Shown here in pieces: positions 44,719 through 64,000 of a DNA stretch of 64,000 bases. Source of the stretch: Acidobacteriota bacterium. GTDB taxonomy: Bacteria; Acidobacteriota; Terriglobia; Terriglobales; Acidobacteriaceae. The stretch is taken from the NCBI GenBank assembly GCA_025359885.1, contig JANYDG010000122.1, positions 1-64,000 on the forward strand, given 5' to 3'. Both the position numbers and the translations under genes were made by a program. Position 1 is the stretch's first letter, and the number at the start of each line of letters is the position of its first letter. A model generated the notes under the pieces. The model was not told the origin of the DNA. It was given only the letters and a program-made list of their open reading frames with translations, and did not search any database.

Positions 44719-44940
44719 GCAGCGGGCCATGATGGCGGCGCGGAGTCGGTCGCGGACGGAGTTGGGGAGTTCGTAGACCTGGTGGGAGCGGTAGATTTCA
44801 ATGGTTTTGCGGGTGGTGTTGAGGGTGACTTCGCAGTGTTCGCAGCCGCTGAGGTGTTCCCGGATCTGGGAACGGGTTTCCACCGACACGGAGTCGTCAA
44901 TCAAGTCGTCAAGCAGGGCCAAAAACTCAGAGCAGGTCAC
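44704..44940 (-). CDS. Zinc-finger anti-sigma factor (ZAS type)
   Basis: 78 aa. A short helical protein with HLSGCEHC, the H-x3-C-x2-C zinc motif of ZAS anti-sigma domains, after a conserved Cys near the N-terminus (MTCSEFL). No membrane helix follows, so it is soluble. It overlaps the upstream sigma gene by 4 bp, the usual coupled sigma/anti-sigma arrangement, and probably inhibits it. Confidence 0.8.
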   Translation of the reverse strand: MTCSEFLALLDDLIDDSVSVETRSQIREHLSGCEHCEVTLNTTRKTIEIYRSHQVYELPNSVRDRLRAAIMARCKNGC

Positions 44941-59273: not shown

Positions 59274-59508
59274 AGGTCCTCTTCGGCAACAGGTGGTCAG
59301 ATCACGTGACGCAGGTAATTTCTTAACTTGATGCTATGGTGCGGTGCGCTGAGATGGGTGTGATGCAAGTCACGGAAGCACCTGGTAGGACGTGAGCGGG
59401 ATTTTTTTCGGGAATGGTGAAACGAGGTGGGGTGGCGGCTCACTACTTCATTGGATGTCGTGAGGATCGCGATTTCCGAGTGAAGTGGAAGTACGGAAAG
59501 GAATTGCT
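59274..59508. other. Divergent intergenic region with palindromes
   Basis: 234 bp between the respiratory operon and the 731-aa protein gene. Holds TCACGTGA (59302-59309) and a CRP/FNR-like site; probably carries both promoters, though no clear -35/-10 pair was found. Confidence 0.5.
59359..59374. promoter_or_regulatory. CRP/FNR-like palindrome in the divergent region
   Basis: TGTGA-TGCAAG-TCACG, nine of ten half-site positions. A CRP/FNR-family factor would be a natural regulator for the respiratory operon. Confidence 0.4.
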
Positions 59509-61704
59509 ATGCCCTCCCCCAAACAAATCAAAGTGGCAAAGGCCACCGAGTCGACAAAGGAGCACATCTCCTTTGCCAAGTTGTCACCTGAACTGGCGCG
59601 GCACAATTTTCATGCGCTGCTGGTCGCCAATCCCAACTATTTCGGCAATCTGAAGGAAAGCGGATTTCAGTCGGTGCTGAAGATTACCGGGGATACGAAC
59701 TACGAGAGCCTGGGCTGTGTTGGGTATAACCCACAGTTGAAGCAGTTGCGGGCGACGATCAACATCAAGCAGGATGGCGGGTATTCGGGCGACCTGTGTA
59801 CAGGTGGTTCGGATGAGTATGTGCGCTTTTTCCTGTCATTTGACAGCGGGGTGAGCTGGCAGGACCAGGGCATGCAGGCAGTGAACGTCTTTGACGTTGC
59901 CGGACCGAAGCCTCTTGAGTACGCGGTAACGCTGGGGATCAACCCTGCGGAGGAGTTCTGTTTTGTGGAGAACCTGCCGCTGGTACGGGCGATTCTGAGT
60001 TGGAATGCGCCGCCGCCAGCAGGCCAGCCGAACTGGACCCCGATCTGGGGCGATGTGCTGGATGCAAGGATTCAAATTGAGGGATTCGAGTTTATTCTGC
60101 TGAGCACGTTGCTGGCCGAGGCAAAGCTTCATTTGCCAGAGCAGTTCTTAAAGGCGATTGACCTGGGTCAGCCGGTGAAGGCAGCGCAAGCCAAGGCCCT
60201 GAGCCCGGTAGATCTGCATCATCTTTATGCGGAGACGAAGGTGCCGCAGCACCGGTATCTGGCACCGCTGCTGGCTTCAACGACGGGTTCGTCTTCGGCA
60301 GCTGCGAAGGCAGCGCACCTGCACCAGTCCCATGCAAAGGCCGTGACGAGCTTTGGCGGGATTGCCAATATCAATGTCGCGAAGCTGGTGGAAGAATGGT
60401 TGAATACCAGCGGCAATACCAGCTTTGAAGAGATTGACTGCGTCGGCCTGGATCCGAACTCAAGCCAGCTTGTGGGTGTGTTGCGGGTGAAACAGAGCGG
60501 CGGCTATTCGGGTGCGCCGTGCACGCCTGGTAGCCAGGAATTTGTGGCTTTCTGGGTGGATTGGGGCACCGGTTTTCAGTTTGCCGGGACTACATCGGTA
60601 ACGGTGCATGACTTCAGCGCGGTGCCGTCGGGCGGGCTTGAGTACAACGTGTTTTTGCCGGTGGACCTGCTTTCGCACGCGCAGCCCTGTTACGACGGGC
60701 CGAAGACAGCAATAGTAAGGGCTGTGCTGAGCTGGAATACTCCCCCATCGACAACCGACCCGTTCGCCCCAGTGGTGTGGGGTAATGCGACGGAAGGTCT
60801 GATCCTGGTGCCACCGGGCCCGGTGATCGGCAATGGGCAGCAGGTGCCGGTTCTGAGCGCAGTCGGCGACATTGAGGTGTCGAAGATTGGTGGCGATGGC
60901 CGAATTACGAGTGCAAACGCGATTACGACAGGCGCGCACTTTGCAGATGCTCCATTTGGCGGGCGGGTGACGCTGGCGGGGGCGATTTCCAATCCTACGC
61001 CGGGACTGAAGTATCGCGTGATGAAGGCTCCGCACGGCAGTGGCACGTTTTCGCCTGTGGCGAATGAGCCGCTCGGACTGACGCTGGTCATTAATGACTT
61101 CAATGGCGTGAGCTGGACGCAAACGGACCTGACGCTGCATGCGGATGCAGACGGGTATTACGTGTACCAGGCGAGCTCGGTGAACCATTTTGTCGAGGGC
61201 CAGTTGCTGGGCGAGTGGTACACGACGGGGGCTGACAGCGGCAACGCCTTTGACCTGCGGGTTGACCTGAGCGTGGATGGGAATCCGGCACACGACATTC
61301 AAAGCGACATAGTGGTTGTGCTGGTGAATAACGAGACCCCGACGGCAACGCTGACGCCGACGTTTGGCGAATGCGGGAAGGTCGCTCCAGGAGCGGTGAT
61401 TTCGGGTGTGTTCACGGCAACGGCGACCGACTTTGGGTCGTTCGGGTTTACTATCCTGCCGCCCGGACCTGCGCATGGGGTGTTGCCGACGCCTGCTGGC
61501 GGAAGCTCGACCTGGTTGGGCGGTGCAATTTCTGACCCCGGCGTGGTGGTTGCTTCGTTCTCACTGGATACGACTGGAATGGATGCCTGTGGCTACTCGC
61601 TGACGCTGGGCGTGTGGGACCGGACAAACGTCAACAGTGGTCAGACGAACAATTATCACCAGGACTCAGTCGGGTTCTGCCTGGATAACGTGTTCGCTGG
61701 TTAA
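59509..61704 (+). CDS. Large cytosolic protein with an internal duplication, unknown
   Basis: 731 aa from the ATG at 59509; a start at 59485 would add 8 residues. No signal peptide. Residues about 66-190 and 307-433 are repeats of one domain: C-V-G-x-(N/D)-P, K-Q-x-G-G-Y-S-G-x-x-C-T, L-S-W-N-x-P-P and W-G occur in both, with three Cys at matching positions (70, 97, 151 and 311, 338, 394). The linker (200-290) is Ala/Lys/His-rich. The C-terminal part (about 440-731) is beta-sandwich-like with aromatic and Gly-rich turns. No enzyme motif. It starts the operon carrying the sigma factor and is followed by a hairpin. Confidence 0.75.
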   Translation: MPSPKQIKVAKATESTKEHISFAKLSPELARHNFHALLVANPNYFGNLKESGFQSVLKITGDTNYESLGCVGYNPQLKQLRATINIKQDGGYSGDLCTGGSDEYVRFFLSFDSGVSWQDQGMQAVNVFDVAGPKPLEYAVTLGINPAEEFCFVENLPLVRAILSWNAPPPAGQPNWTPIWGDVLDARIQIEGFEFILLSTLLAEAKLHLPEQFLKAIDLGQPVKAAQAKALSPVDLHHLYAETKVPQHRYLAPLLASTTGSSSAAAKAAHLHQSHAKAVTSFGGIANINVAKLVEEWLNTSGNTSFEEIDCVGLDPNSSQLVGVLRVKQSGGYSGAPCTPGSQEFVAFWVDWGTGFQFAGTTSVTVHDFSAVPSGGLEYNVFLPVDLLSHAQPCYDGPKTAIVRAVLSWNTPPSTTDPFAPVVWGNATEGLILVPPGPVIGNGQQVPVLSAVGDIEVSKIGGDGRITSANAITTGAHFADAPFGGRVTLAGAISNPTPGLKYRVMKAPHGSGTFSPVANEPLGLTLVINDFNGVSWTQTDLTLHADADGYYVYQASSVNHFVEGQLLGEWYTTGADSGNAFDLRVDLSVDGNPAHDIQSDIVVVLVNNETPTATLTPTFGECGKVAPGAVISGVFTATATDFGSFGFTILPPGPAHGVLPTPAGGSSTWLGGAISDPGVVVASFSLDTTGMDACGYSLTLGVWDRTNVNSGQTNNYHQDSVGFCLDNVFAG

Positions 61705-61724
61705 AAACTCTCTCCCCCAGAGCG

Positions 61725-61768
61725 GACGGGAATTGCTCACGCCAGAAGCGGCGAAGGCAAGTCCCGTC
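61725..61768 (+). terminator. Stem-loop after the duplicated-domain gene
   Basis: GACGGGA/TCCCGTC arms extended by TTGC/GCAA, with an inner CGCC/GGCG hairpin, followed by GGAATTTT. It could end or attenuate transcription before the next gene. Confidence 0.55.
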
Positions 61769-61820
61769 TGGAATTTTCCGTGATGGATCCAGGAGCCTCG
61801 GTTGAGGCTGATGGGAATGA

Positions 61821-62174
61821 ATGATGAACGACGGTGAGACGATCTGGAGGTTTTGCCTGGCAACGCTGGCGGTTTGGCGGGTCAGCCATTTGCTGGCGGA
61901 AGAAGACGGGCCTTGGGATCTGATTTTGAAGGTCCGGGGTTGGCTGGGGTCGAGCATATTGGGGCGTCTGATGGATTGCTTTTACTGCCTGAGCATGTGG
62001 GTCAGCCTGCCACTGGCGGTTTGGGTAAGCCGGATAAGGGAAGGCGGCAGTTGGATTGGCTCTTTAGTTGTCTGGCTGGCAGTGTCCGGTGGCGCCTGTC
62101 TGCTGGAGCGGTTGACGATTGTGCCGGAAGCTGGAGTAATAACGGCCGAAATTGAAAGCTTGGAAGGGGATTGA
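61821..62174 (+). CDS. DUF1360-like small membrane protein
   Basis: 117 aa. DUF1360-type features: FCLATLAVWRVSHLLAEEDGPWDLILKVR near the N-terminus, CFYCLSMWV (a C-x2-C pair) and two membrane segments. Family function is unknown. Its stop is 2 bp before the next ATG. Confidence 0.7.
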   Translation: MMNDGETIWRFCLATLAVWRVSHLLAEEDGPWDLILKVRGWLGSSILGRLMDCFYCLSMWVSLPLAVWVSRIREGGSWIGSLVVWLAVSGGACLLERLTIVPEAGVITAEIESLEGD

Positions 62175-62176
62175 CG

Positions 62177-62404
62177 ATGTGCTGCGGACAGAGGAGACGT
62201 GCATTGAAGATGAGCGGAGAACAGGATGAAAGCGGCGGCGAGAGCCTGGTAAAGCTGCTGTACTATGGGCATGCTCCGGTGCATATTCGCGGGCCGGTGA
62301 CGGGGCGACTGTACCAGTTTTCGCGGGAACAGACGACTCAGGCGGTCGATGCGCGTGATGCTGTCTCGATGCTTCGGACGCGGCTTTTCAGGCAAACGCG
62401 ATGA
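62177..62404 (+). CDS. 75-residue protein starting MCCGQ, unknown
   Basis: A short basic protein beginning with adjacent Cys (MCCGQRRR), then a beta-rich core YYGHAPVHIRGPVTGRLYQFS and VDARDAVSML near the end. No family was recognised. Its stop overlaps the sigma factor ATG by 4 bp, and its start follows the DUF1360-like stop by 2 bp, so the three are translationally linked. Confidence 0.6.
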   Translation: MCCGQRRRALKMSGEQDESGGESLVKLLYYGHAPVHIRGPVTGRLYQFSREQTTQAVDARDAVSMLRTRLFRQTR

Positions 62405-63240
62405 GCGCGGGTGTGGGTTTGGCAATGCCGGTGCAGCGCGGTGCTGGCGTAGCTGGAGGATCCCGGCGGGTGAGGCTGGCCGTGTGCGAGCGTCGGGTAC
62501 CGACAGCCTTTCGACCGCAGGAACTGGTGCTTGAGACAGGGCCGGAGAACGGGCTGGAGAGCGGGTTAGAGAACCTTCCTGATACGGGGGCGAAAGATGC
62601 TGCGATACTATACGAGCGTTCACGCAGAGCGTCGGAGCATGGGTTGGAATTTCATTCATTTGATGCGGGTTATATTGACCGCCTGAGTGCTGGGCATCGG
62701 GAAACGCAAGAGCATTTCGTGCGCTACTTTACCGCGCTGATTGAGATGAAGCTGCGGTCAAAGCTGCGGTCTCCCCAGGCAGTTGAGGACGTGTGCCAGG
62801 AGACATTTGCGCGGGTGCTCAAGGCGGTGCGGCAGCCGGGAACGGTGCGCCAGCCAGAGCGGTTTGGCGCGTTCGTCAACACGGTTTGCAACCATGTGCT
62901 GCATGAGCATTATCGATTTGCGGCGCGCGGCGATTCACTGGACGACGAGGGGCAGCCCGAATTGCCTTCAAAAGCACCGGATGCCTTGCAGGCGGTGGCT
63001 TCGGCAGAGATGAAAGAAAAGGTCGGAGAGATTATGCGGCATATGCCGGAGCGTGACCGGAAGCTCTTGTACGGGGTTTTTTTTGAGGATCAGGACCGGG
63101 ATGAACTATGCGCACAGCTTCGCGTGAACCGGGTGTATCTGCGCACGCTGCTGCTGCGAGCGAAGCTGGAGTTCAAGGGGGAGTACCTGAAGAGGTACGG
63201 GGACCAGCGACCTTTTGGCATGAAGGGGCAGGAAGTTTGA
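62401..63240 (+). CDS. ECF sigma factor with long N-terminal extension
   Basis: 279 aa. An atypical N-terminal extension of about 90 residues (with ENGLESGLENL) precedes sigma region 2 (HFVRYFTALIEMKLRSKLRSPQAVEDVCQETFARVLKAVR). The C-terminal part is region 4 (HMPERDRKLLYGVFFEDQDRDELCAQLRVNRVYLRTLLLRAKLEF). It starts inside the CCGQ gene end (ATGA), and an anti-sigma gene follows. Confidence 0.85.
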   Translation: MSAGVGLAMPVQRGAGVAGGSRRVRLAVCERRVPTAFRPQELVLETGPENGLESGLENLPDTGAKDAAILYERSRRASEHGLEFHSFDAGYIDRLSAGHRETQEHFVRYFTALIEMKLRSKLRSPQAVEDVCQETFARVLKAVRQPGTVRQPERFGAFVNTVCNHVLHEHYRFAARGDSLDDEGQPELPSKAPDALQAVASAEMKEKVGEIMRHMPERDRKLLYGVFFEDQDRDELCAQLRVNRVYLRTLLLRAKLEFKGEYLKRYGDQRPFGMKGQEV

Positions 63241-63300
63241 AACGAATTGGAGCGGCGCGCCACTATCAGAGGAAGCGCATGACTGCGTGGGGTTGAGACG

Positions 63301-64000
63301 ATGGATCATAGTGAAGCAGTAAAGGCGATGGTGGTCGAGCGGTATCTGCTGGACGAGCTGCTGCCTAATGAGCGCGAGGCATTTGAAGAGCATTTTTTTG
63401 ATTGCTCAGAGTGTGCGATGGATTTGCGTGCGGCAGCAGCGTTTGTCGATGAAGCACGAGTGCAGTTGCCGGCGATGATGGCGGCGGAAGTGAGAACCCC
63501 GGTGGAGTCGGCGAAGGTCGCCAGGACGGCCTGGTGGCGGTCACTGTTTGCCACTCCCATGGTGATGGGACCGGTGTTTGCGGCGCTGCTGGTGATGGTG
63601 GGATATCAGAATTTTGTGGTGGTTCCGGAATTAAGGACTGAAGCGCGTGAACCTCGGATGATGCCTCTTATCGGTCTGAATGGAGAGGCACGGGGTGCCG
63701 CGAAGGTGATTGCGGTAGATCCAAAAGCTGGGGCAGCTTTGGCTGTGGATTTTCCCGAGCAGACAGGTTACTCTTCTTTCGCATTTGATTTGTATGATCC
63801 GGCGGGTAAAGCGGCGTGGAGCCATAGTGTGCTTGCGGCCCGGGATGGAGCCCCGAATGGAGACAATGATGCCGCGGGCGCAGGACGGTTGATGTTGCAG
63901 ATTCCGGCGGAAGGGTTGCGCGAAGGGGCGTATACACTTGCGGTTTCAGGAGTTGGCGCGCAGGGCGAACGGACGCCGCTTGAAAAGTATGGGTTTGAGA
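63301..64000 (+). CDS. Membrane anti-sigma factor with zinc finger (3' end outside window)
   Basis: 233 codons visible. Begins MDHSEAVKAMVVERYLLDELL; zf-HC2 zinc motif H-x3-C-x2-C in HFFDCSEC (near 40), then one membrane helix (TPMVMGPVFAALLVMVGYQ, near 85-105) and a periplasmic domain with beta-rich sequence (DFPEQTGYSSFAFDLYDP) that is open at the window edge. It probably binds the sigma factor encoded 60 bp upstream and senses an envelope signal. Confidence 0.82.
   Translation, partial: MDHSEAVKAMVVERYLLDELLPNEREAFEEHFFDCSECAMDLRAAAAFVDEARVQLPAMMAAEVRTPVESAKVARTAWWRSLFATPMVMGPVFAALLVMVGYQNFVVVPELRTEAREPRMMPLIGLNGEARGAAKVIAVDPKAGAALAVDFPEQTGYSSFAFDLYDPAGKAAWSHSVLAARDGAPNGDNDAAGAGRLMLQIPAEGLREGAYTLAVSGVGAQGERTPLEKYGFE

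Follow-up and report, generated by a model that had tools for sequence, protein, structure and literature searches.

A probable protease-linked ECF sigma switch with an interchangeable output module in Acidobacteriota

Introduction

Soils commonly contain Acidobacteriota, a phylum with few elucidated signalling systems. The DNA analysed here (the window) is a stretch of 64,000 nucleotides from an Acidobacteriota bacterium of the family Acidobacteriaceae (assembly GCA_025359885.1, contig JANYDG010000122.1, positions 1 to 64,000). At its distal end, a gene encoding a 731 amino-acid (731-aa) protein is followed by genes for a DUF1360 membrane protein, a small CCGQ protein, an ECF sigma factor and an anti-sigma factor. 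A first interpretation of this DNA (the sequence-only reading) took these five genes for a dedicated system with its own sigma factor. Does the sigma/anti-sigma pair belong to the 731-aa protein, or is this protein one client of a wider switch?

Organization of the locus and its protein families

The five genes are found with the positions and spacing first reported (Table 1): the CCGQ gene starts 2 bp after the DUF1360 gene and overlaps the sigma gene by 4 bp. The limits assigned to the system were too narrow, as the window ends inside the anti-sigma gene and the contig (86.8 kb) runs on with two further genes, encoding a 280-residue protein (p280) and then a TPR-CHAT protease.

Table 1. Promoter motifs and genes of the locus, in contig coordinates.
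Feature	Position	Strand	Evidence and remarks
P1, TGAAACG-N16-CACTA	59418..59445	+	exact match; 63 bp 5' of the 731-aa gene
731-aa protein	59509..61704	+	ORF; internal duplication
DUF1360 small membrane protein	61821..62174	+	PF07098, 23 bits (cut-off 21)
CCGQ (MCCGQ) protein, 75 aa	62177..62404	+	family A3, conserved in relatives
ECF sigma factor	62401..63240	+	Sigma70_r2 and TIGR02937 over cut-off
P2, TGAAACG-N16-CACTA	63238..63265	+	exact match; 35 bp 5' of the anti-sigma gene
Anti-sigma factor	63301..64000 in the window, end at contig position 64017	+	zf-HC2, HxxxCxxC, one membrane helix
p280 (280 aa)	64175-65017, same contig, beyond the window		no family match
TPR-CHAT protease	longest ORF 64774-67518, same contig, beyond the window		CHAT, 163 bits

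The 731-aa protein harbors an internal duplication, residues about 32-190 matching residues 272-434 with 33% identity over 165 residues (E 1e-18). Together with the Cys residues that correspond between the copies (C70/C97/C151 and C311/C338/C394, invariant in ten homologues), this self-match confirms the duplicated three-Cys domain proposed earlier. To the two trios then counted, a third must be added that had been overlooked: C622, C694 and C724, located in the C-terminal beta-rich region and also invariant in ten homologues. No signal peptide or membrane segment is seen in the protein and, among its homologues, a hydrophobic segment occurs only in one weak partial relative in genome G124. 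Pfam and NCBIfam searches do not place it in any family, and a PDB sequence search returned no significant match; the GEVED domain (PF20009) is not a feature of this family, the cyanobacterial homologue alone giving a weak match of 17.4 bits, for a cut-off of 24.4. The predicted structure is beta-rich, with low confidence (pLDDT 53, pTM 0.30). Foldseek matches of this model to alpha-2-macroglobulin and complement have a TM score of about 0.1; they indicate a tandem beta-sandwich only and were left unused. Relatives of the 731-aa protein were not found on plasmids, phages or viral contigs, nor were relatives of p280 on plasmids or viral contigs, hence carriage by such elements is unsupported.

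The small membrane protein belongs to the DUF1360 family, as its score exceeds the cut-off. A phage link of the CCGQ protein, considered from sequence resemblance, was rejected: a single match was obtained at E 0.9, without any PHROG. The sigma factor is assigned to the ECF type (regions 2 and 4) on the basis of region 2 (26.1 bits, cut-off 24) and of the ECF superfamily model TIGR02937, region 4_2 remaining below its cut-off (16.5 vs 25.7). The anti-sigma factor scores exactly at the zf-HC2 cut-off (22.2 bits); it displays an N-terminal HxxxCxxC zinc motif, a single membrane helix at residues 82-100 and a C-terminal part predicted to be periplasmic, and is thus of the zinc-motif type. The motif is conserved across the anti-sigma factors of related loci, and the helix is present in most of them. 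To note, the window contains a second zf-HC2 anti-sigma-like match (44833-44934, minus strand), unrelated to this operon.

The CHAT protein possesses an intact His/Cys dyad, conserved in all aligned members. Most members exhibit an N-terminal hydrophobic segment and are predicted to face the periplasm. A lipobox is not universal, and the members closest to that of the window have the hydrophobic segment only; at the hydropathy threshold applied, this segment was not detected in the longest CHAT ORF of the locus itself. The predicted structure of p280 is beta-rich, again with low confidence (pLDDT 44). PDB sequence searches gave nothing significant for p280 or the anti-sigma factor and only TPR proteins for CHAT, and PADLOC returned TPR-level matches only.

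Distribution of the two modules

A scan of bacterial genomes identified eight loci, six acidobacterial and two cyanobacterial. The complete order (731-aa protein, DUF1360, CCGQ, sigma, anti-sigma, p280, CHAT) is preserved in L011 and L012, and in L010 up to the contig end, while L009 has all the genes except a recognisable DUF1360. In L014 and L015 the first gene is shortened and partly decayed; the former (L014:7815-14129) is a decaying copy of the locus, in which the Cys residues of the first protein are lost and CHAT is split in two frames. The sequence-only reading was to fall if 731-aa homologues never occurred beside the other genes, and the neighbourhood search finds them adjoining DUF1360, CCGQ and sigma genes in other genomes.

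Profile searches of 297 Acidobacteriota genomes give a different picture of what is constant. The 731-aa profile has matches in seven of them, four being long, and the p280 profile in 16. In every p280 neighbourhood examined, CHAT and anti-sigma genes adjoin p280, and so does the sigma gene, except in G212, where it is located elsewhere in the genome, and in G316, where the contig ends. Only two of the 16 p280 genomes, that of the window and G228, encode a full-length 731-aa homologue, and the majority of the cassettes lack this gene. Conversely, G024 and G092 possess the 731-aa gene while no p280 was found in them, and the cyanobacterial homologues adjoin unrelated genes. The homologue of G092 lies on a short contig (L066) beside a PLD-like protein and a patatin-like phospholipase, with no cassette gene.

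Two genomes illustrate how the parts separate. In G010, the 731-aa/DUF1360/CCGQ trio is carried by contig 2 and the cassette by contig 4. In the near relative G011, the same chromosomal place harbors CCGQ and the cassette, without the 731-aa and DUF1360 genes; a one-mismatch P1 there nearly abuts the spacer that trails the 731-aa gene in the window, a junction as expected for clean loss or gain of cargo behind a promoter.

Across Acidobacteriota, the conserved core is therefore the four-gene cassette of sigma, anti-sigma, p280 and TPR-CHAT (module A), to which the 731-aa/DUF1360/CCGQ trio (module B) is an add-on. The sigma pair cannot be held as a property of the 731-aa protein: it belongs to this wider cassette, mostly devoid of the 731-aa gene, and in several genomes the 731-aa gene is located apart from the cassette, some of these genomes having no detected one. 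Of the dedicated system first proposed, what stands is a sigma/anti-sigma pair proper to the operon, with matching promoters; the specificity of this pair for the 731-aa protein does not.

A promoter motif shared by both modules

The two modules have in common an ECF-type promoter motif, TGAAACG-N16-CAC(T/C)A, with T as the usual next base (26 sites). It was found by reading the upstream regions of the loci, and genome-wide counts were made afterwards. In the 4.2 Mb genome of the window, the exact CACTA form occurs only at P1 and P2. One-mismatch matches number eight in this genome, against 36 for the reversed control (up to one mismatch), and are treated as chance. A counterpart of P2 precedes the anti-sigma gene in many relatives, including other families of the phylum (L063, L065).

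The motif (0-1 mismatch) lies upstream of the 731-aa gene in ten of ten loci with a cassette in the genome or contig, a set with two shortened homologues and the unlinked copies of G010 and G036. It is absent from all four loci where no cassette was found (the two cyanobacteria, scored from their flanks only, G024 and G092), which gives a Fisher p of 0.001, an optimistic value for the loci used in motif discovery. Exact sites amount to 56 in 18 other cassette genomes (16 for the reversed pattern) and to two in seven non-cassette genomes (four for the reversed pattern). The sigma upstream regions of module-B loci mostly lack the motif, which implies that the sigma factor depends there on read-through from P1.

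The occurrence of the motif before homologous genes, unlinked 731-aa copies included, and its absence where no cassette was found make it very probable that both modules are under the control of the sigma factor through this promoter. A shared promoter and a shared candidate regulon are well supported by comparative genomics.

Other outputs behind the motif

In other genomes, exact sites precede sigma, anti-sigma and 731-aa genes, as well as a CCGQ-like gene (G005). In genus g40, an exact site is located 5' of an MliC-type lysozyme inhibitor (PF09864, 3.7e-10), beside the cassette or the sigma gene. Exact sites also precede the gene of a large secreted protein matching Sortilin-Vps10 in G212 and that of a similar protein in G312. 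In G010, an exact site lies 5' of TssB in a type VI secretion operon (T6SS_VipA, 1e-58); in both G001 and the window's genome, tssB has a two-mismatch motif 18-19 bp before the start codon, a distance as in G010. The tssB gene of the window's genome lies outside the window (G000:C15:49869-50378), with CGAAACG-N16-CACAA 19 bp before its start codon. Type VI secretion is rare here (5 of 28 genomes), and the association of its presence with that of the 731-aa gene (Fisher p 0.05) was not relied on.

In G001 (L139:6335-8857), an exact motif is followed by genes for a very Lys/Glu-rich protein, a 250-aa protein and a RimK-like ATP-grasp protein; G010 has a similar exact-motif cluster (L134:4877-7397), its ATP-grasp protein being judged by sequence similarity. 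These may be peptide-modification clusters. Many exact sites in some genomes, for example G312, precede unrelated genes, and some lie inside genes; such sites are predicted by the control and are probably due to chance. Elsewhere in the window's own genome (L025, G000:C66:4979-8758), another TPR-CHAT gene is followed by a small Cys-x-x-Cys anti-sigma-like gene and a secreted protein, possibly a similar CHAT-sigma arrangement.

Proposed mechanism and alternatives

The locus is better described as a protease-linked ECF switch whose output module is interchangeable; the sequence-only reading misplaced both the boundary and the centre of the system. On balance, we favor a two-module stress switch in which module A is the CHAT-linked sigma switch and module B one interchangeable output. 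The anti-sigma factor is predicted to inhibit the sigma factor, as expected from its family, its zinc motif keeping the latter at the inner membrane. An envelope insult would activate the TPR-CHAT protease which, facing the periplasm, would cleave the anti-sigma factor within its periplasmic part and free the sigma factor. The freed sigma factor would then read the TGAAACG-N16-CAC(T/C)A promoters, P1 raising the whole operon and P2 raising anti-sigma, p280 and CHAT. The 731-aa protein may act as a cytosolic multi-domain beta-sandwich effector or scaffold, and module B would be one of several species-dependent outputs, others being the MliC-type inhibitor and, in one species, the type VI operon. 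The presence of lysozyme-inhibitor and secretion outputs points to an envelope insult as the putative trigger, and the switch probably responds to envelope attack. Several observations speak against this scheme: the motif-free sigma upstream regions of most module-B loci, the patchy occurrence of the CHAT lipobox, the rarity of type VI secretion together with the two mismatches in its promoter in the window's genome, and the exact sites that precede unrelated genes.

Alternatively, CHAT-TPR and p280 might be outputs and not sensors, CHAT being a periplasmic protease that attacks foreign or damaged proteins and p280 its partner or substrate, and the sigma factor being freed by a site-1/site-2 protease pathway encoded elsewhere. 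Both genes are indeed downstream of P2, and would be sigma-induced, and the transmembrane anti-sigma layout is that used by RseA/DegS-type pathways. However, CHAT is constantly linked to sigma and anti-sigma genes in distant Acidobacteriota while the outputs vary, which suggests a core regulatory role and leaves this alternative rather unlikely. That module B is an unrelated gene set landed beside the cassette, in an operon without functional meaning, would fit its patchy distribution, the cyanobacterial copies next to unrelated genes and the cassette-free G024 and G092, but is improbable given the promoter before every copy in cassette genomes, even unlinked ones, and the company of DUF1360 and CCGQ that the 731-aa gene keeps in G010.

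Comparison with known systems

In the literature searched, a collection with few subscription papers, no description of the present combination was found; what is new here is the ECF-type promoter common to the 731-aa and anti-sigma genes. This promoter makes the regulon of the two-module switch directly testable, and the orphan 731-aa, CCGQ, p280 and DUF1360 families gain a common regulatory setting.

Three known systems offer parallels. In ECF54, an ECF sigma factor has CHAT or subtilase neighbours and proteolytic control has been proposed, without an anti-sigma factor (PMC8999054). The CHAT protein in the genetic context of the sigma factor is a common trait, whereas the present system always includes a membrane anti-sigma factor, its gene being found beside p280 in all cassettes examined. 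A parallel with RseA/DegS-type pathways is named in PMC10028731. As in RpoE/RseA/DegS, the ECF sigma factor would be held by a single-pass anti-sigma factor and released by a periplasm-facing protease, but the candidate protease is TPR-CHAT instead of DegS, and the promoter sequence and outputs differ.

In the Craspase accessory circuit, too, a TPR-CHAT protease is encoded alongside an ECF sigma factor and its inhibitor, and relief of the sigma inhibition by TPR-CHAT has been demonstrated experimentally for Csx29/Csx30/CASP-sigma (PMC10028731). The differences are threefold: in place of Csx30, the inhibitor here is an anti-sigma factor of the single-pass, zinc-motif type; no Cas7-11 effector or Csx30 was seen by inspection among the neighbouring ORFs of the window contig and its relatives, and the loci examined contain no CRISPR effector; and an N-terminal hydrophobic segment distinguishes CHAT here, for which export is predicted. 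A tentative, bolder reading would make the locus a membrane-bound counterpart of Craspase, CHAT sensing envelope attack and cutting the anti-sigma factor, and the sigma factor driving species-specific counter-attack outputs (the 731-aa module, the lysozyme inhibitor and type VI secretion) via the shared promoter. If the pairing of TPR-CHAT with an anti-sigma factor holds true, CHAT-triggered sigma release would be a general design and not a peculiarity of CRISPR systems.
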